Origin: Couchioplanes caeruleus
GTDB lineage: Bacteria; Actinomycetota; Actinomycetes; Mycobacteriales; Micromonosporaceae
DNA length: 64,000 nucleotides
Assembly (NCBI RefSeq): GCF_023499255.1
Contig: NZ_CP092183.1
Coordinates: forward strand, 7,746,501 to 7,810,500
Direction of reading: 5' to 3'
Under the pieces are notes generated by a model that did no database searches, was not told where the DNA came from, and was given only the letters and a program-made list of their open reading frames with translations. Below are positions 15,453-57,636 of this stretch, piece after piece. Each line of letters starts with the position of its first letter. Position 1 is the first letter of the stretch. The translations under genes were made by a program, and so were the position numbers.

Positions 15453-15815
15453 ATGACCGACCGAGAGAAAGCCCTTCACCCCGAGGACCTCACGCGCCTG
15501 TTCGTCGAACGCGCCAACGCCAAGGACGCGGAAGGACTGTCGCTGCTGTACGAGGAGGACGCCGTGATGGCGTACCCACCGGGCCGGCAGATCGTGGGCC
15601 GGGAGGCCATCCGCAAGCTGTGGGAGGAGGCGCTGCCGCACATGCCGGCGTTCGAACCGGAAGAGCCTCTGCCGACGCTGATCAGCGGGGACCTGGCGCT
15701 GACCTCGACGCCGCCGAAGGACGGGTCGGGAGCGCGGGCACAGGTCGTACGCCGCCAACCCGACGGCAGCTGGCTCCGGGTTCTCGACCAGCCCGAGTTC
15801 ACCCCGCCCCGCTAG
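15453..15815 (+). CDS. NTF2-like / SnoaL-type small protein
   Basis: The 120-aa protein shows the NTF2-like cone fold sequence pattern: an N-terminal helix (LTRLFVERANAKDAEGLSLLY), the EEDAVMAYPPGRQIVGREAIRKLWEEAL core, and C-terminal strands with VVRRQPDGSWLRVLDQP. Such DUF4440/SnoaL-like proteins include isomerases, hydrolases and ligand-binding proteins; the role here is unknown. It is divergent from the LysR gene, and its last 17 nt overlap the convergent small gene at 15799. Confidence 0.85.
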   Translation: MTDREKALHPEDLTRLFVERANAKDAEGLSLLYEEDAVMAYPPGRQIVGREAIRKLWEEALPHMPAFEPEEPLPTLISGDLALTSTPPKDGSGARAQVVRRQPDGSWLRVLDQPEFTPPR

Positions 15816-15990
15816 ACCTGTCCCCGCGGGGACCGGGCGGCCCGGACCTCAGCTCGCTGATCCGGCGCAGCCGCCGGACGAGGTCGGCGGTCACCTCGCC
15901 GGCTTCGGCACCGTCCTCGATCCGGGCGGCCACCGCCGCGCGCAGCTCGCGTTCGAGCAGGTGGTGCAGCTGTTCGTCGGACGTGTGCAT
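15799..15990 (-). CDS. Small helical protein, partner of sigma-like protein 1
   Basis: The 63-aa protein starts at ATG 15990 behind GGAGG. The helix LLERELRAAVAARIEDGAEAG resembles LLEEELRAAYRSALERGARPA of the small gene at 30161. Both sit beside a gene of the sigma-like paralogue family. It may bind or regulate that protein, but no function is established. It is the last gene of a five-gene minus-strand run starting at 22858. Confidence 0.6.
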   Translation of the reverse strand: MHTSDEQLHHLLERELRAAVAARIEDGAEAGEVTADLVRRLRRISELRSGPPGPRGDRSSGAG

Positions 15991-16008
15991 GAGGGACCTC
16001 CGGCGCTC

Positions 16009-17136
16009 TCACCTGCTCCCTGACGGACCGCGCCCGTCCCCGGACCGGCCGCGCAGGATGCCGACGACCGCGGCGATGACCCGGTCCAGCCGGTCCGGGT
16101 CGCCGATCAGCGCGACCACGTGACCCGGACCGGCCGGCTCCGCGCCGGGCAGCCGGTCCAGCCCGTACGAGTCGGGCACCGCCCCGAACACCGTGCCCAG
16201 CACCTCGGTCACGACGTCCTCGACCCGTCCGCCGCGCCCGATCTGCTCGGTCATGGCGTCGATCGCGCGACCGGCCAGCTCGCTCAGCAGCGCGTCGTCC
16301 CGCTCGTACGGCTCCACCAGCTGCAACGGCTCCGGTTCGGCGTACCCGGCATCGGCCGGCGCGGCGAACCACACCGGGGCCTGCTTGCGGCCCAGCGGGC
16401 GCTCGACGTTCTTCTCGTACCAGGCGCGGCGCCGGCGCATGGCGGTCAGCACGACCTCCACCTCGGCCGCGACCGTCGCCTCGTCCGCCGCCACGTCGCC
16501 GGTACGCCGCAGCCGCAGCTCCGCCCACCGGGTCAGCGGCCAGAGCGAGGCGCCGGCCGTGGCGTCGACGCCGGCCCAGTCCAGAACCACCTTCGCCAGC
16601 TCGACGAGCCACGGGTCGTCGTGCAGCTCGGTGGCGAGCCAGATCGGGACCCGGGGCCGCTGTGGTGCGCCCCGGCGGCCACGCCGCTTGCGGTAGCCCT
16701 CGATGACCGCCTTGGGCATGCGCATGGTCAGCCAGCCCTCGAGGTTCGCGATCGGCAGGTCGGCATGGGCGAACAGGTCGTCGACGACGGCCTCGACGTC
16801 GTCGTGGAAGCGGTCCAGGCACTCGGGTGCGAGCCGCTGCACCGCCGAGGCGCACCGGTGGTGGCCGCGGGCGCGCTCGGCCGCCCGGGTCACCCGCTGG
16901 AACACCAGCGGCCAGACGATCTCGGTGGCGTCCGCCCGCAACCGGCGCCGCTCGTCGGCCGACGCCGCCCGGACGCGCCCCGTGAGTTCTCCTCGCCGTG
17001 CCGACCGGCGGACCTCGCTGCTGACCACGATCCACTCCTCGATGTCGAAGGTGGATCGATCGTCGCCGCGGGGAGGACCGGCGAACATGCTGGTCAGCGC
17101 GGTTGCGGGGAAATACGTATGCACCCCGCCCGGCAT
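16009..17136 (-). CDS. Sigma-region-2-like protein, paralogue 1
   Basis: The 375-aa protein is the first of three paralogues here (others at 30344 and 36645). Shared blocks are C-L-D-x-F-H/Y-D-D-V-E-A-V-V, a GWL..R...A.I/V.G..RRRG segment followed by QRPR.P (about residues 130-165), a mid-protein W-hydrophobic block ending LWPL..WA, and AMRRR..WY...VERPLG.K. The GWL/RRRG block looks like sigma-70 region 2.3-2.4, but no region 4 is obvious, so the sigma assignment is tentative. The C-terminal part (IGDPDRLDRVIAAVVGIL) is also shared. It lies downstream of a caspase gene and a small gene, and upstream of a small helical protein. Confidence 0.6.
   Translation of the reverse strand: MPGGVHTYFPATALTSMFAGPPRGDDRSTFDIEEWIVVSSEVRRSARRGELTGRVRAASADERRRLRADATEIVWPLVFQRVTRAAERARGHHRCASAVQRLAPECLDRFHDDVEAVVDDLFAHADLPIANLEGWLTMRMPKAVIEGYRKRRGRRGAPQRPRVPIWLATELHDDPWLVELAKVVLDWAGVDATAGASLWPLTRWAELRLRRTGDVAADEATVAAEVEVVLTAMRRRRAWYEKNVERPLGRKQAPVWFAAPADAGYAEPEPLQLVEPYERDDALLSELAGRAIDAMTEQIGRGGRVEDVVTEVLGTVFGAVPDSYGLDRLPGAEPAGPGHVVALIGDPDRLDRVIAAVVGILRGRSGDGRGPSGSR
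16020..16028 (-). promoter_or_regulatory. GTCCGTCAG element before the 15799-15990 gene
   Basis: The element lies 29 nt upstream of ATG 15990, inside the 3' end of the preceding gene. It is followed by a purine-rich stretch (GGAGCAGG). Confidence 0.4.
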
Positions 17137-17184: not shown

Positions 17185-17409
17185 TCAGGACATCTCGCTC
17201 GGGCGGGGTCCCTGGTCGAGGTCGAGGACGACGCCGGAGGCGGTCGCACCGTTGAGGAACACGGTGACCGCCCGGCCCGAGGCGTCCGCGAGCGGCAGCT
17301 CCACCGTCGTGCGGTTGAGCATCGCGTCCCGGACCTGCCCGGCCACGGCCTCAGCGTCCGCGTCGGCGATCTGCCACTCCTGCTGCCCGATGATCAGTTT
17401 CTTGGCCAT
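17185..17409 (-). CDS. Small hypothetical protein linked to the caspase gene
   Basis: The 74-aa protein starts at ATG 17409 behind AAAGGAG. It has alternating predicted strands and one helix (DAEAVAGQVRDAML) and no membrane segment. I do not recognise the family. It lies 23 nt downstream of the caspase gene, so it is probably cotranscribed; it could be an accessory or substrate of that protease. Confidence 0.65.
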   Translation of the reverse strand: MAKKLIIGQQEWQIADADAEAVAGQVRDAMLNRTTVELPLADASGRAVTVFLNGATASGVVLDLDQGPRPSEMS

Positions 17410-17432: not shown

Positions 17433-19958
17433 TCAGTCGACCTGGTCGACCGAGTACGTGAACGAGAAGTCCTGCGGGTGGCGCTCGTGCCGCCCGATGC
17501 CGAACTGCTCCTGGGCGAGCAGGGAGGTGCGGTACAGCCCGATGCCCGGCCCGACCACTCCGGTCAGCAGCTCGTACGCCGTGTTCACCAGCACCGCGCC
17601 GGCACCGAGCACGGCGACCGCGGCAGCGGCGTGCGGCGCCGTCATCGCGAGCCCGGCGATCTGCGCGCTCGCCGCCTGCAGCGCGGGGCTGTTCAGCCGC
17701 TCCTCCAGCAGCGCGCTGAGCGCGAGGCTCCCGCCGGTGTCCCGGGAGACCCAGACGGCGATGTCGAGGAAGTCGACCGCCGGACCGTGGTAGATCAGCA
17801 CGTCGTCCATCGGCAGCCGCTCACCGTCGCGCACGTTGCTGAACCGCATCGTCTCGGCCCGGTACACCGGCCGGCCATCCGGGCCACCGGTCAGCACGAC
17901 CGCATCCACGCGGATGTCCGCACTGCCCAGGGCACGGTTGCGGTGCACGATCAGCTCGGCGATCCGTACCGCCACCCGGCCGGGGAGCGCACCGCGGGGC
18001 GACAGCAGCCGGACCGGTTCCGGCGGCCGGTCGTCGACCAGGAACGTCGCCTGCTCCACGGCCGGCGGAGCGGTCGGGCTCACCGTGAAGTCCACGGCCT
18101 GGACGACGTAGCGAACGCTCTTGCCGGGAGGGTCGCCGATCTCGCGGGTCGCGCCGGTGGCGATCTGGGCGATCAGGCCGGCCAGCCCGGGCGCGGCGCC
18201 GAGGCGGTCGGCGTCGCCGCGGACGCCCTGCTGCTGCAGCACGCTCACGTCCACCGGTGCGTCGCTGATCAGCACCAGCACGGTCTCCGGGCGGGCCAGC
18301 GCCGCGTCGGTGCCCTCCGGCCAGGTCACGTCGACCCCGGTCAGCCGCCGCAGATCCTCGTCCCAGCCGTACGTGTACGTGCCACCGGGCGCGAGCCGGA
18401 CACCGCCGGGGTCGGCCGCGGTCAGCACGGCGATGCGCGCGGAGACCCCGATGTCCACGAGCGAGACGTACGCCGGTTCCACGCCGTCATTCCGCAGCCG
18501 GAAGTACACGCGCTCCCCGGCGTACGCGTGAAGCAGTGCCCCGCCCGAGGGCAGCGGCTCCTCCCGGCCGTCGCGCACCCGCCCCCATTCGACGTGCACG
18601 CCGTGGTCCAGCGGGTGGTCCGGGTCTCCGCTCAGCCGGCGCAGTGCCGCGGCCTGGGCGACGCGCTGCAGGTTGGCCGCGATCGCGCTGACCCCCAACG
18701 GATTCGGCGGGTACGGCGCGTGCAGCGGCCCGGTCCCGTCCCGGACCACCAGCCCCCCATCGTCCTCGACGGTCACCGCGACCGGCGCGTGCGCCTCGGT
18801 CTCCGGGTCGGCCGGGCGCACCAGGGGACGCAGAGCCAGCGCGTTGACCAGCTCCGCCGTCACGGGATGCCCGTACGGCAGACGCACCGGCAGCGCCGGC
18901 GCCGCGGCCTTGGTGCGGAACGCGCGGGCGTCGGCGGGCACGTCCGACGCGGCCGGGCCGATCCGCAGCGGTGCCGCGGCGGCGGTCGGCAGCAGCCGGT
19001 CGACCGTCGCGGTCCCGAGCGCCGGTCCGTCCTGCGGCCCGACGGCGTCGGCCGGCATGATGGTGAACTCGTCGCCGACCGCGACGCCCAGCAGCGGCGC
19101 ACCGAGCAGCTGCACCCGGTCCGGCGTGGTCACCGCGACCGGCAGAGCGCCGAGCGGGTCCAGGTCGACGGTCTCGAACGGCTGCCGGGTGGACGGCCCC
19201 TCCGCCTCGGGCCGCTGGCCGGGCGCGAGCGTCTGCACGTCGCGGCGGACCGCGTCGAGCAGCGTGGCCCAGCTGAGCCTCAGCCCGGCGGTGTCCCGCA
19301 GGGCGCGGGCCAGGGCGTCGGTGAGCAGGCCCATCCGGACGCCGTCCCGGTTGGCGCCCTCCCACGCCGACTGCGACGGCGAGCAGGCGACCACGCGGAC
19401 CGCGTACGGGTTGCTGATCAGATGCCGCTGCTGCACGGCCAGGCCGGCCGCCTTCAGCCTGCCGACATGCCGCTCGACGCTCTCGTACGTCGACCCGTCC
19501 CGTTCCCGGAGCAGCGACTTCACCCGCAGGTCCGTCTGCCGGGACATGTGGGCGGCGTGGCAGCAGTCGAGCACCACGGTGACGTTGCGGGCGACCGCGG
19601 TCAGCCGGGCCAGGAGCACGGACAGCTCGACGCCGGTGATGCCGTGGAAGTCGTCGGCGTCCGCGTAGTCGTCGGGCACGATGAACTGCAGGTCCGGCCC
19701 GGTGGCCGCCGCGCCGCCCGGCGCCTGCAGCCGGCCGCCGTGGCCGCTGTAGTAGATGACGAAGGCGTCGTCCGGGGCGGCGTCGACGATCAGTTTCTCG
19801 TACCCGTCGAGGATCGCGGCCCGGGTGGCGTCCGGCGTCACCAGCCGCTCCACCCGGAAGCCGCGCGGCTCCAACGCCCCGGCCATCGCCTCGACGTCGT
19901 TGAGCACGCCGCTCAGGCCCCCGGTCTCGGCGCCGATCAGAAGAGCTTTTCGCGTCAT
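17433..19958 (-). CDS. Caspase-family (peptidase C14) protein with long C-terminal region
   Basis: The 841-aa protein opens with a caspase p20-like domain: KALLIGAETGGLSGVLNDVEAM at the start, then the catalytic His in VIYYSGHGG (His73) and the Cys in VVLDCCHAAHMS (Cys133). Both active-site residues are present. Residues about 280-700 are predicted beta-rich domains without a recognised family. A hydrophobic stretch at about 765-800 could be a membrane anchor. A shorter relative lies at 38063 with the same opening. Bacterial caspase homologues (metacaspase/orthocaspase type) act as effectors of regulated cell death or defence. A GTCCGTCAG element lies 8 nt before the start, and there is only a weak ribosome site. 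Confidence 0.85.
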   Translation of the reverse strand: MTRKALLIGAETGGLSGVLNDVEAMAGALEPRGFRVERLVTPDATRAAILDGYEKLIVDAAPDDAFVIYYSGHGGRLQAPGGAAATGPDLQFIVPDDYADADDFHGITGVELSVLLARLTAVARNVTVVLDCCHAAHMSRQTDLRVKSLLRERDGSTYESVERHVGRLKAAGLAVQQRHLISNPYAVRVVACSPSQSAWEGANRDGVRMGLLTDALARALRDTAGLRLSWATLLDAVRRDVQTLAPGQRPEAEGPSTRQPFETVDLDPLGALPVAVTTPDRVQLLGAPLLGVAVGDEFTIMPADAVGPQDGPALGTATVDRLLPTAAAAPLRIGPAASDVPADARAFRTKAAAPALPVRLPYGHPVTAELVNALALRPLVRPADPETEAHAPVAVTVEDDGGLVVRDGTGPLHAPYPPNPLGVSAIAANLQRVAQAAALRRLSGDPDHPLDHGVHVEWGRVRDGREEPLPSGGALLHAYAGERVYFRLRNDGVEPAYVSLVDIGVSARIAVLTAADPGGVRLAPGGTYTYGWDEDLRRLTGVDVTWPEGTDAALARPETVLVLISDAPVDVSVLQQQGVRGDADRLGAAPGLAGLIAQIATGATREIGDPPGKSVRYVVQAVDFTVSPTAPPAVEQATFLVDDRPPEPVRLLSPRGALPGRVAVRIAELIVHRNRALGSADIRVDAVVLTGGPDGRPVYRAETMRFSNVRDGERLPMDDVLIYHGPAVDFLDIAVWVSRDTGGSLALSALLEERLNSPALQAASAQIAGLAMTAPHAAAAVAVLGAGAVLVNTAYELLTGVVGPGIGLYRTSLLAQEQFGIGRHERHPQDFSFTYSVDQVD

Positions 19959-19966: not shown

Positions 19967-19975
19967 CTGACGGAC
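19967..19975 (-). promoter_or_regulatory. GTCCGTCAG element before the caspase gene
   Basis: It lies only 8 nt upstream of ATG 19958, in the 20-nt gap after the LuxR-type regulator gene. This is much closer than the 26-41 nt seen at other genes. Confidence 0.4.
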
Positions 19976-19978: not shown

Positions 19979-22858
19979 TCAGGCCGCTTCGAAGAACCCT
20001 TCCCGGCGGGCGAACGCGACCGCCTCGACGGCGTTGTGCACGCCGAGCCTGCGGAACACGCGGCCGATCTGCGTCTCCACGGTCCGCCGGCTGCGGCCCC
20101 GGAGCTGCGCGATGCGGGCGGCGTCGTACCCGTCGTAGAGGTAGCCCAGGACTTCCCACTCGGTCGGCGTGAGGCCGTACGGCAACGGCGGCGCGGCTTC
20201 CGCGAGGTTCATGCCGATCCGCGCGGCGAACCGTTCGACCCGCCCGGCCAGTGGGGCGGCACCCAGCGCCCGCGCCGCCCGGTGCGCCTCCCGCGCGGCC
20301 CGCTTCGCCCGGTCCCGGTCACGGCCGGCCGCCTCGGCCTCCCGCCACCGGGCGTACGCCGCCGGATAGGCGCGATCCAGGCCGGCCCAGCCGGCGGCGA
20401 CCTGCGACCACACCTCGGCCGTGTCCGCGCGCCGGCTCCGCTTCCGTTCCGCGGCGCACAACGACAGAAGCTGCTCCTCCTCGGCGGTCAGCTTCCGGCC
20501 CCGGACCGACCCGGCCAGCAGGGCGAGCTCGTCACTGGCCTCCGGAGCGCCCCGGTCGGCCGCACACCGCATGCCCACCGCGCACAACCGCAACAGCTCC
20601 ATCGTGTTCTCGCCGTCGCGCAACACCGACAGCCCGTGGGCCACCTCGGCGGCCGCCCCGGCCAGGTCCCCCTCACCGAGTGCCAGCTCGGCCCGGACCG
20701 TGTGCAACGGGCCGAGGAACCGGGGATCCTCGCCCTTCTCCACGTCCGCGATCGAGGCGAGCAGCTCCCGGGCCCCGTCGAAGTCGCCCCTCGCCACCCT
20801 CACCTCGGCGAGCGTCAGCCGCGGGTACAGGCTCTCCTGCGGCGGCCGGTCCAGCGACACCTCGGTGATGATCCGCTCGGCCTCGTCCCACTCGCCGAGC
20901 AGCACGAGCGCGGCGCTGGCGTTGTTGGCCAGCACGGTCCCCTGCCGCGTGTACGCCAGATCGAACTGCCGTGCCACCTCCAGCCCCTGCGTGGTGACGG
21001 TCGCCGCCTCCCGCAGGCGGCCGGCGTTCTCCAGCACCAGGCCCAGATTCCCGTACGCCCGGAACCGGTCCTCGAGGTGGTTGACCGACCGGGCGATCTC
21101 CAGCGCCTGACGCAGCCGCTCCTCGCCACGCTCGTGGTCGCCGAGCATGCCGAGGGCCAGGCCGGAGATGTTCAACGCGCGTCCCTGCTCGGCGACGGCG
21201 TTCACGTCGAGCGCCATGGCCAGCGCGGCGTCCGCCTTCTGCCGGCCCTCGGCGTACCGTCCGGCCTGCAGATCGCCCAGGGCGAGGGCGGCGGACACCC
21301 GCGCCTTCACCGCCGACGGCGGACGGTCGCCGAGCAGCGCGGCCGCCTGCCGGTACGCCGCCAGCGACTCCGCCCGCCGGCCCGCCTCCCACAGGTAGGA
21401 GCCGAGCCGCTCGTGCAACTCCCCCAGCCGGTCGGGCTCGGCGTCGCCCGCCTCCGTGACGGCACGCCGGATGTGCTCGACCGCCGGCTCGACATGCCCC
21501 GCCCACCGCGCCGCATCCGCCGCCGCGGCGAGCAGCTCCACCCGGGACATGCCCGCCCGCGACTCCGCGTCCGGCACCCTGGGCCACAGCTCCAGCGCCC
21601 GCTGGAACTGCACCTCCGCCGATGGGAACGCCAGCGTGCGTACGGCGGCGCGGCCGGCCTGAACCGCCGCGCCGAGCGCCTCCGGCCAGCTCCCCGCCAG
21701 ATACCAGTGGCTGGCCAGCTCGGCCGCCGCGGAACCCTCGCCCAGCCCCAGACCCGGGTCGGCGGTCAGCGCCCGGGCCATGGCCAGATGCAGGTCGACG
21801 CGGGCGTCGCGGACGGTGCTCTGGTAGACCGCCTCCCGCAGCAGGGCGTGCTGGAAGCGGTACACGTCCTGGTCGTCCCCGGCGTACAGCATCTGCCGGT
21901 CGAAGCACTCCTGCAGCGCCTCGTTGAGCTGCTCCCCGGGCAATCCGCTGACCGTACGCAGCAGACGCCGGCTCATCGCCCGCCCGGCGACGGCCGCGAC
22001 GCGCAGCACCTGACCGGACACCGGCTTCAGCGTGTGCAACCGAGCCAGAATGATCGTCATCAGGTCGGCCGACAGCCGCACGCTGTCCGGCTCGGCCAGG
22101 GCGCCCGCAGCCATCAGCTGCTCGGCGAAGAACGGATTCCCGCCCGACCACTCGAAACAGCGCCGCACCAGCCGCGCATCGACGCGACCCCCGCTGCCCG
22201 CGCTCAGCAGCTCCCGCACCTCGTCGAGGCCGAACCGGCCGAGCTCGATGCGCTCGGTGCGCCGCAGGAAAGCCGGACTGCCCAGCAGCTGCCACAGCAG
22301 CGGAGCGTCCCGCTCGATCCCGACGGATCGGTAGCTGCCCAGCAGCAACAGCCGGCGGCCCTCCGGACGGGCCTGTCCCAGATGCCGCAGGAGGTCGAGA
22401 GTGGACGGATCGGCCCAGTGCAGGTCCTCGAGCACCAGCACGACCGGCGCATCACCGCCGATGTGGTCGAGCATCCGCCGCACGGCGAGGAAAACCTGCT
22501 GCTGCGAACCCATCGGATCGCCGCCCAGGTCGAAGAACTTCGTCAGGATCCCGTACGCCGGCCCGCCGAGTGCCGCGGCCCGCATGGGTCCGTAGTCCCG
22601 CACGAAGCCCTCGAGAGCGTCCAGAATCGGCCCGTACGGCATCGGGGCCCCGAAATGCTCCTCGGCCACACCGGCGAGAACGTGGGCGCCGGCCGCGCGC
22701 GCCTCGGCGACGAACGCGGTCAGAAGGCGGCTCTTCCCGACGCCCGCCTCCCCCGCGACCAGGGCCGTACGAGCACTCCCGGCCCGCACGTCGTCAAGCT
22801 GGGCGGCGAGCCGGGCCACCTCGTCCCTGCGGCCGATCAAGGCGGTGTCGTGCGGCAC
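19979..22858 (-). CDS. Large ATP-binding LuxR-family (LAL/STAND) regulator
   Basis: The 959-aa protein starts at GTG 22858 behind GGGGGAGG. It has an AAA/STAND ATPase domain (Walker A GEAGVGKSRLL near residue 35, Walker B LVLEDLHWADPST near residue 140), a long TPR-like helical middle (about 400-850), and a C-terminal LuxR helix-turn-helix (LTPTEWEVLGYLYDGYDAARIAQLRGRSRRTVETQIGRVF, residues about 890-945). MalT-type regulators of this build bind ATP and a ligand, oligomerise and activate promoters. It heads the minus-strand run leading to the caspase and sigma-like genes and may control them. An 18-nt element shared with the region near 31.6 kb lies 105 nt upstream. Confidence 0.92.
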   Translation of the reverse strand: MPHDTALIGRRDEVARLAAQLDDVRAGSARTALVAGEAGVGKSRLLTAFVAEARAAGAHVLAGVAEEHFGAPMPYGPILDALEGFVRDYGPMRAAALGGPAYGILTKFFDLGGDPMGSQQQVFLAVRRMLDHIGGDAPVVLVLEDLHWADPSTLDLLRHLGQARPEGRRLLLLGSYRSVGIERDAPLLWQLLGSPAFLRRTERIELGRFGLDEVRELLSAGSGGRVDARLVRRCFEWSGGNPFFAEQLMAAGALAEPDSVRLSADLMTIILARLHTLKPVSGQVLRVAAVAGRAMSRRLLRTVSGLPGEQLNEALQECFDRQMLYAGDDQDVYRFQHALLREAVYQSTVRDARVDLHLAMARALTADPGLGLGEGSAAAELASHWYLAGSWPEALGAAVQAGRAAVRTLAFPSAEVQFQRALELWPRVPDAESRAGMSRVELLAAAADAARWAGHVEPAVEHIRRAVTEAGDAEPDRLGELHERLGSYLWEAGRRAESLAAYRQAAALLGDRPPSAVKARVSAALALGDLQAGRYAEGRQKADAALAMALDVNAVAEQGRALNISGLALGMLGDHERGEERLRQALEIARSVNHLEDRFRAYGNLGLVLENAGRLREAATVTTQGLEVARQFDLAYTRQGTVLANNASAALVLLGEWDEAERIITEVSLDRPPQESLYPRLTLAEVRVARGDFDGARELLASIADVEKGEDPRFLGPLHTVRAELALGEGDLAGAAAEVAHGLSVLRDGENTMELLRLCAVGMRCAADRGAPEASDELALLAGSVRGRKLTAEEEQLLSLCAAERKRSRRADTAEVWSQVAAGWAGLDRAYPAAYARWREAEAAGRDRDRAKRAAREAHRAARALGAAPLAGRVERFAARIGMNLAEAAPPLPYGLTPTEWEVLGYLYDGYDAARIAQLRGRSRRTVETQIGRVFRRLGVHNAVEAVAFARREGFFEAA

Positions 22859-22962
22859 GCCTCCCCCTCGTCAGCTTCCCTGGTTCGTGGCACCAGGTCA
22901 GCTGACGCTAGGGCCGCCGGCGACGGGAGACATCGCCGACGCGGTCCACATGGGATGGAAGA

Positions 22963-22980
22963 TCGGCTTAATCCGAACGG
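22963..22980 (-). promoter_or_regulatory. Shared TTCGGATTAAGCCGA element upstream of the LuxR-type regulator
   Basis: The minus strand reads CCGTTCGGATTAAGCCGA. A near-identical sequence (one difference in the core) occurs at 31622-31640 upstream of sigma-like protein 2, and a shortened form occurs at 37917-37933 upstream of sigma-like protein 3. Confidence 0.4.
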
Positions 22981-23029: not shown

Positions 23030-23212
23030 TCAGTCGGAGACGGTCTCGTCATCGACGGTGGCGCCGCCCGCGTTCTTCTGAATCGACGCGATCGTGTCCA
23101 TCGCGGAAGCCTTACGCTGGTACGACTCGCTCGTCGCCACCACCTGGCCGTTGCTGGCCACCAGGTTGAACCGGAACTGCCCGTTGCTGGTCTTCTTGAC
23201 CACGAACTTCAT
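23030..23212 (-). CDS. YegP-family (DUF1508) single-repeat protein
   Basis: The 60-aa protein starts at ATG 23212 behind GGAGGT. It carries one DUF1508 repeat: KKTSNGQFRFNLVASNGQVVATSESYQRK and the closing GATVDDETVSD. E. coli YegP and its actinobacterial relatives often have two repeats; this is a single-repeat version. The function of the family is unknown. It stands alone between the LuxR-type regulator and the tRNA. Confidence 0.85.
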   Translation of the reverse strand: MKFVVKKTSNGQFRFNLVASNGQVVATSESYQRKASAMDTIASIQKNAGGATVDDETVSD

Positions 23213-23575
23213 GATCACCACCTCCTGGCCGCCAGGTACCCGCGAGCGCCACCCCGCCAAACCGCTGTCACCCAGGCGGTTCACGAGATCGACGCACACC
23301 CCGACGGGTCGCCCAGGCAGCGAGAAACCGGACCAGCCGGGCACGCAGTCTCTGGTGATGGCTGACCCGGACATCCTGACCCTGGGAAGGTTGTCGAGCG
23401 GGCTGCACGTCTAATACCTCGACGCGACGACCGCCGACCCGGACCTGTCACCTGGGCAGGCCTCGAGAACACGGTCGCCGGCTTCGGGCCGGCTTCAGCT
23501 GCGACGACCAGGGGCGATACGGCCTCGGCATCATCACCGCCGCGGAATACGCGGGATGAAGCTCCCGCACAAGAT
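23213..23575. other. Non-coding stretch of about 360 nt with a possible decayed frame
   Basis: No gene with start and ribosome site is visible. Around 23490-23560 one plus-strand frame reads FSCDDQGRYGLGIITAAEYAG and then stop, which looks protein-like but has no start and is preceded by frame changes. It may be a remnant of a lost gene. The minus-strand upstream region of the YegP-like gene is also here. Confidence 0.3.
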
Positions 23576-23651
23576 TGGTGCCCCCGGCAGGAATCGAACC
23601 TGCGACCTGCGGTTTAGGAAACCGTTGCTCTATCCCCTGAGCTACGAGGGC
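23576..23651 (-). tRNA. tRNA-Arg (anticodon CCT)
   Basis: The minus strand folds as a full cloverleaf: acceptor GCCCTCG/CGGGGGC (one G-U), D-stem GCTC/GAGC, anticodon loop TTCCTAA giving CCT (reads AGG), and a T-arm GCAGG-TTCGAAT-CCTGC. The CCA end is encoded (23576-23578). One mismatched pair lies at the top of the anticodon stem. tRNA-Arg(CCT) genes are frequent integration sites for actinobacterial elements, but no duplicate of the 3' end was found in this window. Confidence 0.96.
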
Positions 23652-24039
23652 CTACGCCCATATCGTACCTACCAGCGATTCTGACGGGTGCCCGGTGGTC
23701 CCGACCGTCACCGACCAACGCCATCAGGTCCCAGGGAGCGGTTCCACCGCTGGTGGCGGGCGCACGGAGCATTTCGGCCGTTTGCCACCCCGCCTGCTGG
23801 GCGGTACTGAACAAGCCGTGTCGCTGCCACCGTCGCGTACGGCTCATCGAGCACTCGTCAGGACCCGGAATCGCCGGCACCGTGAACGAGTTGCTGCACT
23901 CGGCCGTCCGGCGAGCTGAGGGCTGACCTCTGCATCATCACGCTGCAGCGAGGCCGGGCAACCGGTCGAGGTGCGACGTGCGGCGTCCCCGGCGCTCCCC
24001 CGCTCGCGAAACGAAGGTGGCTCCGCCGGAGTCGGTGGA
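23652..24039. other. Non-coding stretch of about 390 nt after the tRNA
   Basis: Only short overlapping frames without ribosome sites are present. I see no repeat of the tRNA end, no integrase and no transposase remnant. This is the upstream region of the toxin-antitoxin operon. Confidence 0.5.
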
Positions 24040-24055: not shown

Positions 24056-24071
24056 CCGAAGGAGGGTGACG

Positions 24072-43499: not shown

Positions 43500-43503
43500 G
43501 CCG

Positions 43504-49804: not shown

Positions 49805-49805
49805 C

Positions 49806-51434: not shown

Positions 51435-51443
51435 GGAGCGGAC

Positions 51444-51617
51444 GTGCCGATCGACTCACCCCCCAGCCACCAGGTGTCCCGTTACGTCATCGCCCTGCTG
51501 CTGATCGCGGCGTTCGCGGCGGTCATCGTCGGGCTGGTCCTCGCGGGCGTGGACACCTCGGCCACCGAGGGCGGCAGGCGGATCATCGAGGAGGTGCGCA
51601 CGGCATGGCGGAGCTGA
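51444..51617 (+). CDS. Small single-pass membrane protein (57 aa)
   Basis: The frame starts at GTG 51444 (GAGGAG 4 nt upstream) and has one TM helix (VIALLLIAAFAAVIVGLVLAG) and a short charged tail (GGRRIIEEVRTAW). It overlaps the start of Hsp70 protein 2 by 13 nt, so it lies inside the operon and is probably translated. I do not recognise the family. It could anchor or signal through the membrane GTPase, as small TM proteins of polycistronic systems often do. Confidence 0.65.
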   Translation: MPIDSPPSHQVSRYVIALLLIAAFAAVIVGLVLAGVDTSATEGGRRIIEEVRTAWRS

Positions 51618-53206
51618 CCCCGTTCCTGGGCATCGACCTGGGCACCACGAACTCGGTGGCGGCATCCGTGGACGCCGAGGGGCGCCCGATGGTGCTGCGC
51701 AACCCGGCCGGCTCGGAGACCGTACCGTCGGTGGTGCAGTTCGTGTCCGCCGACGCCGTCCTCGTCGGCGATCAGGCCCGGGAGCTGGCCGCGGTCGACC
51801 CGGCGCACACCGTCGCGCTGGTCAAGCGGCTGATGGGCACCGACCGGCTGTTCGAGTTCCACGGCGCCGAGCACACCCCGGAGTCCATCTCCGCGCTCAT
51901 CCTGCGCGCCATCGTGGACGGGGTGCTGCCCCACCGCGACGGTACGCCGGTCCCGGCCGTCATCACCGTCCCGGCGTACTTCGGCATCCGCGAGCGAGAA
52001 GCGACGCAGCAGGCCGGGCTGCTGGCCGGGTTGCGGGTCCTGGAGCTGGTCAGCGAGCCGGTCGCGGCGGCGCTGCACTACCGTCCGCGCGGCGACGGGC
52101 CGGTCGTGGTCTACGACCTGGGCGGCGGGACGTTCGACGTCACCGTGTTGCGGGTCGACGGAACCGGTTCCCAGGTCGTGGCGGTGGACGGCGACATGGA
52201 CCTCGGCGGCGCCGACTGGGACCAGCGGCTGCGCGCCCACCTGCTCGACCGGTTCGTGGACCAGGTGGGCCCCGCGCAGGACCCGGCCGAGGACGCGGCG
52301 TTCATGACCGAGCTGACGCTGGTGGCCGAACGCGCGAAGAAGGCACTCACGCACACCCGCACGCACGAGGTCGCGCTGCGCCACGACGGGGCGACCGCAC
52401 GGATCACGGTGTCGCAGGACGAGTTCGCCGCGATGACCCGCGACCTCACCGATCGCACCGGCGACTGTGTGCGGCGCATCCTGGCCACTGCCGGGCTGGC
52501 GCCGGGCGACGTCGCCGACTGCCTGCTGGTCGGCGGCTCGACCCGGATGCCGCAGGTCGCCTCGGCGCTGCGGGAGTGGTTCGGCTGGAACCCGCGGTCG
52601 CACGACCCGGACCTGGCCGTCGCCAAGGGCGCCGCGCTCCGGGCCTGGCAGTTGGTGGACGCCGAGCAGGCCTGGGTCACCCCGGGATGGGGTACGGACG
52701 CCGTTCCGTCCCGCCCGTCCGCACCGTCGCCCACGCCGGCGACGTCCGTACCGTTCCTGAGTTCGGTGGTGCCCCGCAGCTTCGGCCTGCTGATCCACGA
52801 CAGCTCCGATCCGCAGGGCCGGCGCCGCTACATCCAGCACGTGATCCACCAGAACGAGCCGCTGCCGGCCGACGGGCACGAGATCAAGGTCGCCACGATC
52901 CTCAAGGACCAGGCGACCGTCCGCATCGAGGTGTACGAGCAGGCCGGCTTCGTCGAGTCGGCGGAGGTGGACGACAACCGCCGGGTGCTCGACGGCCAGC
53001 TCTCCGGGCTCCCGCCCGGGCTCAAGGCGGGGTCGCCGCTGATCGTGGCGCTGCACCTCGGCTTGGACGGGCGGCTGCGGGTGACCGCCCGGGAACCGCG
53101 CAGCGGCGTCTCGCTCAGCCTGGAGGCGTACGTGGACGGTGTGCTCGATGCCAACGACCGGCTGCAGCAGGCCGAGCGCCTGACCCGGTTGACCGTACGT
53201 CAGTGA
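51605..53206 (+). CDS. Hsp70-family protein 2
   Basis: The 533-aa protein has the Hsp70 ATPase motifs: LGIDLGTTNSVAASVD, VPAYFGIREREATQQAG, VYDLGGGTFDVTVLRV, and LLVGGSTRMPQVA. The C-terminal beta substrate domain (about 390-520) has FGLLIHDSS, IKVATILKDQATVRIEVYEQAGFVESAE and no helical lid. A Pro/Ser-rich insert (AVPSRPSAPSPTPAT, near residue 365) replaces the interdomain linker. It shares about the same layout as Hsp70 protein 1, from which it probably arose by duplication. No second GrpE-like gene accompanies it. Confidence 0.93.
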   Translation: MAELTPFLGIDLGTTNSVAASVDAEGRPMVLRNPAGSETVPSVVQFVSADAVLVGDQARELAAVDPAHTVALVKRLMGTDRLFEFHGAEHTPESISALILRAIVDGVLPHRDGTPVPAVITVPAYFGIREREATQQAGLLAGLRVLELVSEPVAAALHYRPRGDGPVVVYDLGGGTFDVTVLRVDGTGSQVVAVDGDMDLGGADWDQRLRAHLLDRFVDQVGPAQDPAEDAAFMTELTLVAERAKKALTHTRTHEVALRHDGATARITVSQDEFAAMTRDLTDRTGDCVRRILATAGLAPGDVADCLLVGGSTRMPQVASALREWFGWNPRSHDPDLAVAKGAALRAWQLVDAEQAWVTPGWGTDAVPSRPSAPSPTPATSVPFLSSVVPRSFGLLIHDSSDPQGRRRYIQHVIHQNEPLPADGHEIKVATILKDQATVRIEVYEQAGFVESAEVDDNRRVLDGQLSGLPPGLKAGSPLIVALHLGLDGRLRVTAREPRSGVSLSLEAYVDGVLDANDRLQQAERLTRLTVRQ

Positions 53207-53216
53207 GGGGTTTGTC

Positions 53217-53825
53217 GTGAGCGACTGGATCCGGCGCTCGTTCGACGCAGTGGGCGTCACGCAGTACAAGCCGGGCAAGCACCTGGCGGCCCTGCAGGAG
53301 CCGCATCTGGGCAAGGTCATCCTGTGCATCGACGTGAGCAGCTCGATGTCCGGCAATCCGCTGCAGGAGGCGGTCCGTGGCGCCCGCGAGTTCGTCGCGC
53401 AGGCGGTCGAGGGCCGCTACCGGGTCGGCCTGATCCTGTGGAACAGGTCCGTCGCCGTTTCGGTCCCGCTGTCGGCCGATCCCGGCCCGGTCCTGGCCGG
53501 CCTGGACCGGGCGTACTCCTCGGGCGGCACCAACGTCACGCCGACGCTGCGGGCCGGGATCACCGCGCTGGGTTCCCTGACCGGCGATCGGGTGCTGGCG
53601 GTCTTCGGCGACGGTGACATCGGGCCGGTGGCCCCCGCCGTGGCGGCCGCGCGGGAGGCGGCGGCGCTCGGCATCCGGATCATCGTGCGGGGACTGGGCA
53701 GCCATGCCGCCGCCTCGCTGGCCCAGATCGCGACCGAGGGACTGGAGGGTGCGGAGATCACCGGCAGCGGATCGATCGCCTCGGGCATCGCCGGGATGGC
53801 GACGTCGCTGCGGATGCGGTCCTGA
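53217..53825 (+). CDS. Cytoplasmic von Willebrand A domain protein
   Basis: The 202-aa protein (GTG 53217) is almost only a vWA domain: MIDAS motif IDVSSSMSG near residue 38, SSGGTNVTPTL (MIDAS Thr) near residue 102, and VFGDGDIGP. No signal peptide or membrane segment is seen, unlike the vWA protein at 32943. Stand-alone vWA proteins serve as metal-dependent adaptors in several bacterial conflict systems. It lies between Hsp70 protein 2 (10-nt gap) and the TPR-CHAT protease (1-nt gap), so it may connect the two. Confidence 0.9.
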   Translation: MSDWIRRSFDAVGVTQYKPGKHLAALQEPHLGKVILCIDVSSSMSGNPLQEAVRGAREFVAQAVEGRYRVGLILWNRSVAVSVPLSADPGPVLAGLDRAYSSGGTNVTPTLRAGITALGSLTGDRVLAVFGDGDIGPVAPAVAAAREAAALGIRIIVRGLGSHAAASLAQIATEGLEGAEITGSGSIASGIAGMATSLRMRS

Positions 53826-53826
53826 C

Positions 53827-56800
53827 GTGGACGCCTCAGCCGAGGCGGACGGCGTCGCCGCGCTCGACCGCTACGACCGCGCCGGCGACCCGGACGACCT
53901 GCGTACCGCCGGCCGTCTGCTCGGTGGGGTTCTCGTGGAGCGGCCGGACCATCCGGACCGGTCCCGGTGGGCGGCGCGGCTCAGCGACGGCTTCTCCGAC
54001 GAGGCGTACGACGGTGAAGCGCTCGAGGACTACGACGCCGCGATCGCCTGGGTCACCCGGCTCACGGCAGAGCCGGAGGCCCGGGAGCGGAACGTGGTCC
54101 GGCTCGCAGACCTCGCCTGGGACAGGTCCTGGGTCATCCGGTACGGCGGCGACGACACCGTGGACCCGGCCGAGGATCTGGACCGGCTGATCGGGCTGCT
54201 CGCCGATCTCGAGGACGAGCGGAACGGCCCGGTCGTCTCCCGGTACCTGCGGTTGTTGCACGGCATGGCGCTGGCCGAGCGGGCCGAGCTGGGCGGCGGG
54301 GAGGCCGGCGCCGCGATCGCCCTGTTGGAACCCGCGCTCGAGGAGCTGATCCGGCTTCCGGTCAGCGAGGACGGGACGGAGGTCGCCGACTGGGTCGGTG
54401 ACAACCGGCTCGCGTTGGCGGCGCACTCGCTGGCCGAGGCGTACCGGCGGCGGGGCGATCTGGACCGCGCCGTGGCCGTGCTGGAGCGCGCGCTCGCCGA
54501 CCACGCGACCGGTCTGCTGCGTACGCTCGTGTCCAGCAGCCTCGCGGCGACCCGGCAGGAGCGGTGGCACGACCGGACGGTGGCCGGCGATCACGTCGCG
54601 GCGGCCGCCGAGCTGAAGGCCGGCATCGCGGTCTGCGAAGCCGAGGAGGCCGACGATCCGTGGTTGCTCGCGCTGCACGGCGAGCTGCTGACCGCGCGCG
54701 CCGAGCAGGACGAGTCCGACGCCGACGCTCAGCTGGCCGCCGAACTGCTCGACCGGGCCGCCGAGCTGGTGACCGACGCGCCGGACGGGTGGCGGTTCTG
54801 GCGCTCGGCCGCCACCGCGCATCGCCTCCGCGCTCAGGAGCCGGGCGCGCTGGAGACGGCCGCCCGCCGGATCGAGAAGGCGCTGACGTACGTGCTGCCC
54901 GACGACGACCGCTTGACGATGCACGCCGACCTGCTGGCCATCGCCCACGAACGGGGCACGCCGGACCTGCGGGAGGCGCTGGGCGCCGGGATCCGGGCGT
55001 GGGACGCGGCCACGGAGGCCGATCCGGGGCTCCGCGCGGCGGTTGCGCTCCTCTTCGCGTACGGGTCCTTCGCAGCCGTCGCCGCCGACCTGGGTGACGT
55101 GGACACGGGCGGCATCCGGCGGCTCCTCGAGGCCGCCGCCGACCGGCCCGGCGCCGATGACGAGTGGCGGGCGCTGGTCGACTACGGCACCGGCGTGCTC
55201 GAGCACTACGAGGACATGCTCAACCCGGCACGGCCCGGCGACGGCGGCCTGCGCCGGCTGGCCCGGGCGGCGGCGTTCCAGCAGCCCGACGCCGACTTCG
55301 CGCAACGCCTCCGGCTGACCCTGGCGCTCGCCGGCCAGGCCGAGGCGAGCAGGACCGGCGACCGGCGCACCGCTGAAGCGGCCCGGCAGCAGGCCGATTC
55401 CGGCCGTCCACTGCCGGAGCGACCGGCGCCGGCGGCTCAGGAGCCGGTGAGCCCGGCCGACGTGCACGTCGTCGAGGTCTACTCGCGGCTGATGGAGCAG
55501 ATGCAGGCCAACGACATGATGGCGGTGGTGGCCACCGCCCGCGAGGCGCTGCCGGTCCTGGAGGCGTCGGAACCGTCCGGCCCGGACGTGGCATTCCGGA
55601 ACATGATCCGCGCGCTCGCCGCCCTGGGAGATCCCCACGGGTCGGCGCCCCTGGACATACCCGCGGTCGATCAGGACGGGGGCATGGGGGCCGTCGTGCA
55701 GTACGCCGGCGCGATGATGACGGCCACCGCGGCGCTCGGGCAGGCCATGTACCGCAACGATCTGCCCCGGATGCGGGAGATCGCCGGGACGGTGGAGCAG
55801 CTGATCGCGTCCGTACCGACCGACGACGGGCAGGTGCGGCTCGGCGCGGCCGCCCTGGCGGGACAGGCGCACCTGGAGATCGCCGGCCGGGCACCGGAGG
55901 CCACGGACCACGCGCGGCGGGCGGCCGACTGGTTCGGGCAGGCCCTCGATCACGCCGGCGGGGCCGGGCATCAGATGTGGTCCCGGCTGGCCATGGGCCG
56001 CGCCGAGGCGCTGCGCCACACCGGCGGCGACCACGCGGCCGGCCGCGCCCACGGCATGTCGGCGTTGCAGGGTCACGCCTGGCAGGTCTTCGCCCAGGCC
56101 GGCACGGACCATTCCATCGCCTCCGCGAAGCAGGCGGCGGCGGACGCGCGGAAGGTCGCCGGCTGGTGCCTGGCCGACCGGCGCCGCGACCCGGCCGCGC
56201 TGGATCAGCTGATCGCCGCGCTCGACGCCGGCCGCGGCCTGGTGCTGCGCGCGACCACGACCGCGCGGGCGATCGCCGACCAGCTGACCCGCGCCGGCCA
56301 CGCCGAACTAGCGGCCGAGTGGACGGAGACGGCCGGGCAGGGGCGCGACATGGTCACCGGGCTCGGCATGCCCGTCGGCTCCGGGTTGCAGGGCACCGAG
56401 GTCCCCGACGATCTGCGGCTGCGGGTGCTGCGCGCGCTCGGGGGTGAGCAGGTGCTCGGGTACGAGTCGATCACCGCCCGGGACGTCCGCGCGGCGCTGC
56501 GCGCGACCGGCACGCAGGCCCTCGTGTACCTGCTCGCCGCCGAGGACGGCCGGGAGGGCGCCGCGGTCGTCGTGCCGGCCGGTGGCCCGCCCATCGTGGT
56601 CACGCTGCCGCGCCTCGAGACCGGACCGGATTCGCCCGTACGGTGGTATGTCCGTACGCAGCCGCACACCACCTCGGCCCGCGCCGTCTCGACCGGACCG
56701 GACCGAGGCCCGGAGGATCGCGACCTCGGGCCGATCGCCGACCTCACCGACCCCGGCCGCGGCCTGGACGAGCTCTGCGCGTGGGCGGGGGACGCCGCGA

Positions 56801-57636
56801 TGAGCACCGTGCTGCGGGTCGTGCCCGGCGGTCCCGGTCGCCGTCTGGTGCTGGTCCCGATGGGGATGCTCGCGCTGGTGCCCTGGCACGCGGCTTTCGA
56901 CGGTACGCAGTCCCCACGCCGCTACGCAGCCGAACAGGCCGTCATCTCGTACAGCCCTTCCGCGCGCGCGTTCTGCACCGCCGCGACGCGACCGCGTACG
57001 CCCATCTCCTCGGCCCTGATCGTGGGTGACCCGACCGGCGACCTTCCGCACGCGGGCGCCGAGGCGCGGGCGATCCGAGACCGCTTCTACCCCGCCGGCA
57101 CGACAGCCAACACCCCGGACGAGGTCCTGCGCTGGGTCACCACCCGGCCCCGCGGAGCCGCCATCATGCACTTCGCCTGCCACGGTGCCGTGGACCCACG
57201 CCTGCCCGCCGACGCCCACCTCGTGCTGGGTGGGCACGCCGGCCTCACCGTGCGTACGCTGCTGGAGACTTCCCAGAGCGCCGAACTGGACGTCCAGGAA
57301 GTGTTCCTCGCGGCCTGCACCACCGGCGTCACGGGCCACGACCACGACGAGGTCCTCAGCCTCGCTACGTCGTTCTTGGCGGCCGGAGCCCACACGGTCA
57401 TCGGCTCCCTGTGGCCCGTACCCGACGACGCGACCTCACTGCTGATGTTCAAGGTGCACGAGCACCTGAGGGTGACGGGCTGCCCGCCGGGGGACGCCCT
57501 GCACCGCGCCCAGCTGTGGATGCTCGACCGGGACCGCGACGCGACGGGCATCCCACCGGACCTGCTCGAGGACTACCGGCCGGGAATGGAGTTCCCGCTG
57601 ACGTCATGGGCCGGCTTCACCCACATCGGACGCTAA
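53827..57636 (+). CDS. Large TPR-CHAT protease (active dyad), last gene of the operon
   Basis: The 1269-aa protein starts at GTG 53827, 1 nt after the vWA stop. Residues about 1-780 form long helical repeats (TPR-like). The C-terminal CHAT protease domain (about 960-1230) has catalytic His1119 in IMHFACHGAV and Cys1164 in VFLAACTTGVT, then GAHTVIGSLWPVPDDAT, and the tail LTSWAGFTHIGR. CHAT proteases, as in the Craspase TPR-CHAT enzyme, act on specific protein targets when activated. Here it would be the effector of the Hsp70/GTPase/vWA operon. Both catalytic residues are present, so a functional protease is likely; targets are unknown. Confidence 0.92.
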   Translation: MDASAEADGVAALDRYDRAGDPDDLRTAGRLLGGVLVERPDHPDRSRWAARLSDGFSDEAYDGEALEDYDAAIAWVTRLTAEPEARERNVVRLADLAWDRSWVIRYGGDDTVDPAEDLDRLIGLLADLEDERNGPVVSRYLRLLHGMALAERAELGGGEAGAAIALLEPALEELIRLPVSEDGTEVADWVGDNRLALAAHSLAEAYRRRGDLDRAVAVLERALADHATGLLRTLVSSSLAATRQERWHDRTVAGDHVAAAAELKAGIAVCEAEEADDPWLLALHGELLTARAEQDESDADAQLAAELLDRAAELVTDAPDGWRFWRSAATAHRLRAQEPGALETAARRIEKALTYVLPDDDRLTMHADLLAIAHERGTPDLREALGAGIRAWDAATEADPGLRAAVALLFAYGSFAAVAADLGDVDTGGIRRLLEAAADRPGADDEWRALVDYGTGVLEHYEDMLNPARPGDGGLRRLARAAAFQQPDADFAQRLRLTLALAGQAEASRTGDRRTAEAARQQADSGRPLPERPAPAAQEPVSPADVHVVEVYSRLMEQMQANDMMAVVATAREALPVLEASEPSGPDVAFRNMIRALAALGDPHGSAPLDIPAVDQDGGMGAVVQYAGAMMTATAALGQAMYRNDLPRMREIAGTVEQLIASVPTDDGQVRLGAAALAGQAHLEIAGRAPEATDHARRAADWFGQALDHAGGAGHQMWSRLAMGRAEALRHTGGDHAAGRAHGMSALQGHAWQVFAQAGTDHSIASAKQAAADARKVAGWCLADRRRDPAALDQLIAALDAGRGLVLRATTTARAIADQLTRAGHAELAAEWTETAGQGRDMVTGLGMPVGSGLQGTEVPDDLRLRVLRALGGEQVLGYESITARDVRAALRATGTQALVYLLAAEDGREGAAVVVPAGGPPIVVTLPRLETGPDSPVRWYVRTQPHTTSARAVSTGPDRGPEDRDLGPIADLTDPGRGLDELCAWAGDAAMSTVLRVVPGGPGRRLVLVPMGMLALVPWHAAFDGTQSPRRYAAEQAVISYSPSARAFCTAATRPRTPISSALIVGDPTGDLPHAGAEARAIRDRFYPAGTTANTPDEVLRWVTTRPRGAAIMHFACHGAVDPRLPADAHLVLGGHAGLTVRTLLETSQSAELDVQEVFLAACTTGVTGHDHDEVLSLATSFLAAGAHTVIGSLWPVPDDATSLLMFKVHEHLRVTGCPPGDALHRAQLWMLDRDRDATGIPPDLLEDYRPGMEFPLTSWAGFTHIGR

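Follow-up and report, generated by a model that had tools for sequence, protein, structure and literature searches.

A nine-base element marks effector genes of several conflict modules in actinobacterial genomes that carry a sigma-like factor

Introduction

For many predicted conflict systems of actinobacteria, the trigger and the timing of the response are unknown. This study concerns a stretch of 64,000 nucleotides from the genome of Couchioplanes caeruleus (contig NZ_CP092183.1, positions 7,746,501 to 7,810,500; hereafter the window), in which genes of several such systems are stacked between positions 15799 and 57636, and a nine-base element, GTCCGTCAG, that stands in front of effector genes in this stack. 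Parts of the stack resemble systems that have been described. In the GAP1-N2 "HSP70" theme, DO-GTPases often occur as two with zinc ribbons, some members have a second Hsp70, and an FNIII protein is fused to DnaJ or to tetratricopeptide repeats (TPR) (PMC7159879). In Craspase, CASP-sigma has an inhibitor that is reported to be cut by the CHAT protease (PMC10028731). For ECF54, a group of extracytoplasmic function (ECF) sigma factors, the accessible text names CHAT, subtilase or carboxypeptidase as the context and gives an example from Geodermatophilus (PMC8999054), and the accessible part of PMC8195603 describes EACC2 neighbourhoods independent of TRADD-N as mostly containing an ECF sigma factor and a TPR protein.

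Here we describe the element, its position, its tie to genomes that bear SIG, a sigma-like factor with three paralogues in the window, and the recurrence of the modules in other genomes. We consider it somewhat more likely than not that the stack is a set of conserved conflict modules under one transcriptional code, in which SIG or a strict companion drives an effector regulon in trans. For the proposal that a hitherto unrecognised family of sigma factors commands a dispersed, leaderless regulon (GTCCGTCAG, with the start 8 nt downstream) and jointly switches on caspase, TPR-CHAT, GTPase-GAP1-Hsp70, vWA and STAND systems, we see about an even chance.

Results

The element precedes effector genes

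GTCCGTCAG occurs 12 times in the window against 1.42 occurrences expected, a number that none of 100 shuffles reaches, and it stands ahead of six effector units, which bears out the shared upstream element noticed in the initial annotation. Seven of the 12 sites precede the genes of caspase 1, caspase 2, CHATa, a vWA protein and a 192-aa protein, the GrpE operon, and a 63-aa open reading frame (ORF):

16020-16028: element preceding the 63-aa ORF
19967-19975, minus strand: element, with the ATG of caspase 1 8 nt downstream
25376-25384, minus strand: element upstream of the 192-aa gene
29994-30002, minus strand: element upstream of CHATa
32908-32916, plus strand: element upstream of the vWA gene
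38016-38024, plus strand: element upstream of caspase 2
41161-41169, plus strand: element ahead of the GrpE-GAP1-CHATb operon, identical in Nucisporomicrobium flavum as far as compared

In the window it precedes none of SIG1 to SIG3, STAND-LuxR, P318, CRP and CYC. The sites at 38708 (in caspase 2) and 44881 (in the gene of an 897-aa protein) are intragenic and on the other strand, and that at 58481 lies outside the stack, within a toxin gene. Two further sites, at 1251-1259 and 10721-10729, are left of the stack, the latter between amidohydrolase and CoA-transferase genes.

Gene models of the window came from a codon-usage caller made for this analysis and from Pfam. The comparison with other genomes drew on 48 regions of SIG genomes (G series) and 55 organism-named SIG loci (L series), two counts that overlap in that L104 (Asanoa) and G018 are probably the same contig. 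When upstream regions were counted by gene class, deduplicated and over the fetched loci, the element was found ahead of 22/48 CHAT, 17/48 caspase (CASP), 7/15 CYC, 8/25 sm74, 3/12 GRPE, 1/4 VWATM, 1/1 W192, 4/33 dCHAT, 2/22 GAP1, 1/33 GTP, 1/12 CRP, 1/30 STLux and 1/24 P318 genes, and ahead of 44 of 1388 other genes, where three scrambled control words gave 0-3. It was absent upstream of SIG (0/100), HSP70 (0/20), FN3-like (0/16), VWAs (0/5) and TM387 (0/1). In the spacer between SIG and CHAT, the element is kept in Kribbella and in most of nine Pseudonocardiales loci compared, a variant, GTCCGTCA, standing in two.

For genome-wide counts the exact 11-mer CTGTCCGTCAG was used. Outside the first regions of five SIG genomes (G000, G018, G051, G009 and G019), which hold 55 CHAT genes in total, the next gene encodes a CHAT protein at 5 of at least 15 intergenic sites no more than 150 bp from a start, among the matches listed; two of these sites are at one place (L167), about 9 kb from a SIG. 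Other next genes encode vWA, GTPase-like, dynamin-like, kinase-like and DUF6232 proteins, several of them by matches that fall short of the Pfam cut-off, and a STAND-like protein and, farther off, a trypsin-STAND protein are also encoded near such sites. Of 20 sites from SIG-free genomes, 14 are intragenic and 2 lie within 150 bp upstream of a start. Literature matches listed for the bare GTCCGTCAG word were titles on human or animal cells, in which it is presumably a primer string.

Spacing to the start codon

Over the fetched loci the word has 164 non-genic sites, as against a mean of 6.9 (maximum 20) for 30 shuffled words. At 23 of these sites an ATG, and at 8 a GTG, starts exactly 17 nt downstream of the word's first G, 8 nt past the word; the next best ATG offset is used by 8 sites and the mean is 2.4, while shuffled words give no more than 2 at any offset. 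In caspase 1, the conserved caspase fold begins at the ATG with this spacing. A -10-type element of a leaderless gene would be expected to show such spacing, and we regard GTCCGTCAG as a putative core promoter that ends 8 nt ahead of the start codon in leaderless genes. Among 107 aligned sites there is no conserved -35 at a fixed distance, save a C at -2 and, at part of the sites, the inverted word. This result speaks against a two-box ECF promoter, and it bears on SIG only on the assumption that SIG uses the element as its promoter.

Among intergenic sites no more than 150 bp from a start, perfect inverted arms of at least 7 bp are present at 10 of 32 sites in SIG or module regions and at 5 of 15 genome-wide sites (among the matches listed) vs about 0.6 and 0.4 for shuffled sequence. 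A full inverted copy stands upstream at 17 of 37 sites with divergent genes, 2 of 56 with same-strand genes and 0 of 18 with no neighbour.

The element goes with SIG-bearing genomes

Non-genic sites number 92 in the 48 SIG regions (1,154,722 bases) vs 0 in 13 regions that lack SIG (400,000 bases). Effector-type genes have the element in 59 of 129 cases in SIG genomes vs 0 of 24 in SIG-free genomes (p = 3.7e-6), and other genes in 44 of 1171 vs 0 of 207; one of 15 DO-GTPases of SIG-free genomes has the word in its upstream stretch, necessarily inside a called gene. The exact 11-mer, with the window's genome excluded and the weak-SIG genomes G007 and G026 counted as SIG-free, reaches 0.751/Mb in 29 SIG genomes vs 0.375/Mb in 120 others; its reversed control gives 0.361/Mb and 0.330/Mb, respectively. 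The GrpE-GAP1 operons of these two weak-SIG genomes (L083 in G007, L081 in G026) are without the element. GrpE operons carry it in G048, where SIG is about 0.69 Mb away, and in G009, where SIG is on another contig, and because of these two operons the link between element and SIG appears to work in trans.

At least one site is present in 42 of the 55 named SIG loci. All 13 Amycolatopsis SIG-P318 loci have one, with no CHAT or caspase labelled in them; in 11 of 12 examined the site is beside SIG, before an apparent small start led by a ribosome site, and in L134 it is displaced. Some Amycolatopsis strains have the caspase operon, operon A, elsewhere (L145, L154).

Composition of the stack

The initial annotation had listed the parts of the stack, and gene calls and Pfam recover them all except its cyclase label: two C14 caspases, two CHAT proteases predicted to be of active type, a degenerate CHAT copy and a CHAT remnant, two vWA proteins, two Hsp70s with a GrpE-like factor, two DO-GTPases with GAP1, a STAND-LuxR regulator, and three sigma-like paralogues with pairwise identities of 44-48%. 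The left half comprises the following features.

15799-15990, minus strand: small ORF of 63 aa, read in frame, directly after SIG1
16009-17136, minus strand: SIG1, the caspase operon's sigma-like factor, placed in the operon-A clade by a quick SIG tree
17185-17409, minus strand: sm74, 74-aa protein after the caspase, supported by the gene call and by recurrence in other loci
17433-19958, minus strand: C14 caspase 1 with a long C-terminal part (PF00656, 72 bits; SGHG and DCC kept)
19979-22858, minus strand: STAND-TPR-LuxR regulator (PF13191, 103 bits; PF00196, 40 bits; TPR)
22961-22978: palindrome GTTCGGNTTAANCCGAAC with 1 mismatch, upstream of the STAND-LuxR/caspase operon
24756-25334, minus strand: 192-aa protein, element in front, relative only in N. 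flavum among the fetched loci
25389-27287, minus strand: dCHAT, degenerate CHAT partner (CHAT profile positions 206-274 only, 21 bits)
27284-29959, minus strand: CHATa, TPR-CHAT-type protease (PF12770, 167 bits; TPR part assumed, without a Pfam match)
30344-31450, minus strand: SIG2, sigma-like factor, in the P318-paired clade of the quick tree

The 63-aa ORF likewise follows SIG in N. flavum (L101); its product was among six proteins queried against PHROGs with zero matches. Between the STAND-LuxR gene and a tRNA-Arg(CCT) lies a DUF1508 protein gene (23030-23221), and the tRNA-Arg with a phd-PIN toxin-antitoxin pair (23576-24697) separates the halves of operon A, in a segment that differs in N. 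flavum. Inside the SIG2 gene, ARAGORN calls a tRNA-Pro with a large insert (30627-30723), which is probably false because the Rfam listing is without it. A regular expression for the CHAT catalytic motifs proved unreliable, finding both motifs in only 26 of 54 ordinary CHATs.

The middle of the stack holds these features.

31623-31640: palindrome GTTCGGCTTAACCCGAAC between SIG2 and P318, 1 mismatch in N. flavum L111
31877-32863, plus strand: P318, divergent partner of SIG2, with an N-terminal half made of helices and a beta domain resembling the one in M1 aminopeptidases
32943-34448, plus strand: vWA protein with hydrophobic ends (PF13519, 58.8 bits)
34445-34597, plus strand: CHAT remnant of 50 aa
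34606-35862, plus strand: CYC, putatively cyclase-like
35859-36554, minus strand: CRP-type regulator (PF00027, 48 bits; PF13545, 45 bits)
36645-37787, minus strand: SIG3, sigma-like factor, divergent from caspase 2, the copy used for the structure model
38063-39895, plus strand: C14 caspase 2 (PF00656, 57 bits for a model from 38114; SGHG and DCC kept)
39902-41065, minus strand: TM387, with hydrophobic stretches, no Pfam match and a relative only in N. flavum among the fetched loci

The start of caspase 2, GTG 38063, was set by homology in an alignment, and P318 is divergent from SIG in 20 of the 55 named loci. Of the cyclase-like/CRP pair proposed in the initial annotation, the CRP-type regulator stands, and CYC has zero matches in Pfam, NCBIfam and PDB sequences; we presume cyclase-like character from sequence motifs, and none of these libraries confirms it. 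Full-length relatives of CYC adjoin a CHAT or caspase gene, with CHAT within 20 kb in 6 of 7.

The right half is one operon.

41204-41824, plus strand: GrpE-like protein (PF01025, 49.9 bits)
41817-43499, plus strand: Hsp70 a (PF00012, 323 bits)
43504-46197, plus strand: 897-aa protein located where the theme has its FNIII component, assigned by position and conservation, without a Pfam match
46194-47378, plus strand: zinc-ribbon DO-GTPase a (PF19993, 26.5 bits, just below the cut-off of 27)
47375-49804, plus strand: GAP1 of the N2 type (PF20013, PF20014 and PF20052 at 99.6, 59.7 and 116.8 bits, all above cut-off, for the N2, M and C domains)
49806-51434, plus strand: DO-GTPase b with a hydrophobic N-terminal part (PF19993, 47.3 bits)
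51605-53206, plus strand: Hsp70 b (PF00012, 273 bits)
53217-53825, plus strand: stand-alone vWA protein (PF13519, 43.9 bits)
53827-57636, plus strand: CHATb, TPR-CHAT protease (PF12770, 165 bits; TPR matches under cut-off)

With the GAP1 N2, M and C domains, two DO-GTPases, GrpE and a second Hsp70 all present, the operon 41204-57636 is, judged by its sequence, the published GAP1-N2 "HSP70" theme (PMC7159879). Cysteine pairs are visible in the DO-GTPase sequences. A 9-codon ORF (41178-41207), whose letters are identical in N. flavum as far as compared, starts 8 nt past the element, and the grpE start is overlapped by its stop codon; it is a possible leader peptide. A region of lower GC immediately to the right of the stack holds a CDI-type immunity gene and the gene of an Ntox28 toxin with a T7SS signal (57796-59398).

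Recurrence of the modules

In Micromonosporaceae and Kribbella, operon A has the order STAND-LuxR, caspase, 74-aa protein, SIG, CHAT, dCHAT, which is found in 6 of the 48 SIG-genome regions (G003, G018, G064, G079, G106 and G114; one oppositely oriented gene lies inside the operon in G064 and G106, and the CHAT gene of G114 was called partially) and in 3 of the 55 named loci (L102 Micromonospora, L104 Asanoa, L105 Kribbella). The Pseudonocardiales order is SIG, CHAT, dCHAT, STAND-LuxR, caspase, in 8 of the 55 named loci (Actinokineospora, Actinophytocola, Saccharothrix, Actinocrispum, Amycolatopsis, two Lentzea and Kutzneria). The window has this second type of order, its halves split by the tRNA-Arg and the phd-PIN pair. 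Relatives of dCHAT come after CHAT in three gene orders, and because nine Pseudonocardiales copies have zero CHAT-domain score, dCHAT seems to be a conserved partner without protease function rather than a product of mere decay, a claim about inactivity that concerns the window copy and these nine.

Co-localisation within 20 kb was counted with the window's own genome excluded and with fragments and weak rows dropped. A caspase accompanies SIG in 26 of 45 cases (10 genera) vs 0.28 expected, and GAP1 is accompanied by CHAT in 5, caspase in 4 and SIG in 3 of 20 loci vs about 0.04-0.05 expected. The order GrpE-Hsp70-FN3-like-GTPase-GAP1 is found again in many fetched GAP1 loci, 15 of the 20 being without a match to the CHATa query, which misses distant CHATs such as one near GAP1 in G024. 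The modules thus co-localise in other genera far above chance, but the GAP1 operon is often independent; rather than being one unit, the stack unites three or more conserved modules.

Window positions 6938-47391 are syntenic with N. flavum NEAU-24 (L101 and L111) at 89-95% DNA identity, mostly at least 93%, the interval 26411-29859 being outside the coverage of the two loci and the compared span ending at 47391, before the right end. N. flavum has another short segment at the tRNA-Arg where the window has the phd-PIN pair, an insertion of about 0.9 kb near 13885, and a difference of 3.2 kb at 34487/34498 (L111 13142-16362); between the vWA gene and CYC it has a full-length CHAT gene of 1127 aa, of which the window holds the last 50 codons. 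Among the proteins scanned with Pfam there was no integrase, and the synteny continues left past the stack to at least 6938, neither of which supports an island in the mobile sense. The synteny with only local differences suggests that the stack was inherited and has gained and lost genes locally.

SIG and the palindrome

Zero Pfam or NCBIfam matches were found for SIG1. Sigma70_r2 was found in one of eight SIG relatives (25.1 bits, cut-off 24), and region 2 or 4 in none of the three window copies. When the SIG3 model was compared with VIA-align, most rows were sigma factors, with sigma-2 and then sigma-4 matched in order, and no non-sigma family was prominent; PDB sequences gave no sigma match, the single weak row being an antibody chain (E 0.71). 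These results weakly support a sigma nature, and SIG may be an ECF-like sigma factor that carries a further, helical domain at its C terminus.

With up to 2 mismatches allowed, the palindrome GTTCGGNTTAANCCGAAC has only two sites in the 8.42-Mb genome, one upstream of STAND-LuxR and one, as GTTCGGCTTAACCCGAAC, between SIG2 and P318, a count that is partly circular because the pattern was derived from those two sites. Conservation in N. flavum, which keeps both (2 mismatches at the L101 site, 1 at the L111 site), is the better evidence. Through this palindrome, the STAND-LuxR/caspase half and the SIG2/CHAT half of the split operon are probably regulated together.

Discussion

The element marks effector genes in SIG genomes; whatever we propose beyond this, including DNA binding, transcription and antiviral function, we infer from DNA. 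In our model, the regulators would be SIG1 to SIG3, STAND-LuxR, P318 and CRP, and the effector units caspase 1, caspase 2, CHATa-dCHAT, the vWA gene, the 192-aa gene and the GrpE-Hsp70-GTPase-GAP1-CHATb operon. An infection signal would act on a STAND-LuxR or GTPase-GAP1 switch, and SIG would be made or freed, perhaps by a protease as in Craspase or by proteolysis of its own C-terminal part. SIG, or a strict companion factor, would then bring RNA polymerase to GTCCGTCAG in trans, so that caspase, CHAT, vWA and the chaperone-GTPase operon would be switched on together, leading to dormancy or cell death. The single regulated network of the initial annotation is upheld in so far as a shared cis element links effector units, also elsewhere in the genome, but what it links is a union of modules whose co-regulation we predict.

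Several observations weigh against this model. The element is absent from 13 of the 55 named SIG loci and from CYC in the window, and in SIG genomes the exact word is missing at 18 of 40 CHAT and 28 of 45 caspase genes. The missing -35 box is unlike classical ECF promoters, in which it is conserved. The effector class was defined after the motif had been seen, and SIG-positive regions were picked by SIG matches, SIG-lacking ones by GAP1 or CHAT matches. In a regression, caspase predicts the 11-mer count better (rate ratio 1.74) than SIG does (1.13), the two being collinear, and six SIG-free genomes (G024, G031, G062, G084, G104 and G146) have 8-11 exact 11-mer sites. As sole predictor of that count, SIG was rejected, being inseparable from caspase; P318 also raised the control word. 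A SIG search repeated with a deeper 70-row profile returned the same 32 of 150 genomes and added none of the six, and the regions examined in G024, G031 and G062 have zero non-genic GTCCGTCAG despite their 11-mer excess.

The regression, these six genomes, the weak support for a sigma nature and the existence of inverted pairs of GTCCGTCAG would also suit an explanation that we consider unlikely but worth keeping in view, namely that the element is the operator or promoter box of another regulator travelling with SIG, and that SIG is otherwise employed, for example as a protease substrate. However, STAND-LuxR, CRP, CYC and P318 are each missing beside many element-bearing loci, SIG is the gene common to the element-carrying SIG loci, including the Amycolatopsis loci described above, and the inverted pairs are mostly two divergent promoters. 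We regard it as distinctly improbable that independent conflict systems were gathered by chance or hitch-hiking, a defence-island effect, without common control. The element stands ahead of separate modules and of dispersed CHAT genes, and SIG paralogues keep their partners on the quick tree (36 changes vs 54.5 when shuffled), although the GAP1 loci without a CHATa-query match, the tRNA-Arg segment that differs in N. flavum, and the description of the GAP1-N2 theme on its own by Kaur 2020 (PMC7159879) are what such gathering would predict. That the element acts as an RNA or DNA hairpin controlling translation or processing of effector mRNAs is very improbable and was rejected, for although inverted arms exceed the shuffled numbers and the word often overlaps the ribosome-binding region, the long arms are mostly back-to-back elements of divergent genes (17 of 19 full inverted copies within 40 bp), most sites are without a long stem, and a transcription start better explains the exact offset of the ATG.

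If a SIG-driven regulon is correct, a nine-base code would show which effector genes act together and would predict new effectors from their promoters, and multicellular actinobacteria would have one transcriptional immune command. Geodermatophilus, the source of the ECF54 example, is an actinobacterium as well, and a sigma factor has a role in the CalpL/CalpT/CalpS system.

Comparison with known systems places the right half of the stack closest to the GAP1-N2 HSP70 theme (PMC7159879), with which it shares GrpE, two Hsp70s, two DO-GTPases, GAP1-N2, a large protein between Hsp70 and GTPase, and an actinobacterial host. It differs in that the window operon ends in vWA and TPR-CHAT proteins and lies beside SIG and caspase modules; the main text of PMC7159879 is without 'CHAT' or 'sigma', and its theme passages, as far as accessible, are without a cis element. 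Craspase (type III-E CRISPR), in the accessible part of PMC10028731, likewise has a TPR-CHAT encoded with an ECF-like sigma factor that has sites in its own locus and predicted sites elsewhere, whereas the window operon has a caspase and a degenerate CHAT, and its candidate regulon comprises several conflict systems. No CRISPR effector is among the annotated window proteins, Csx30 relatives not having been searched for, and PADLOC matches listed for 10 stack proteins are without Cas7-11 or Csx29. ECF54 sigma factors lie beside CHAT, as the putative ECF-type factor SIG does, and proteolytic control of them is proposed in the accessible portion of PMC8999054; by that description SIG is set apart by its additional helical C-terminal part. 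The EACC1- and EACC2-caspase systems, known to us from portions of PMC7159879 and PMC8195603, are also caspase-based conflict operons; the window caspases score 38.8 and 40.1 bits with the EACC1-type caspase profile, below its cut-off of 140, and the window has STAND-LuxR, 74-aa and CHAT partners, EACC2 being compared by description. CalpL/CalpT/CalpS (PMC11417357 and PMC12751052, in part) also place a transcriptional response in defence under protease control, but with a Lon-SAVED protease and a cyclic nucleotide signal and, in the accessible text, without CHAT or caspase.

Literature searches for CHAT with caspase, sigma or STAND returned no title or abstract that describes operon A, subscription papers being mostly outside their reach. 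Already known are the GAP1-N2 theme, CHAT and caspase conflict proteases and, from the accessible parts of their sources, ECF54 beside CHAT (PMC8999054) and EACC2-caspase with an ECF sigma factor (PMC8195603). As far as searched, the SIG-CHAT-dCHAT-STAND-LuxR-caspase operon, the GTCCGTCAG element and its reach across conflict systems are new.

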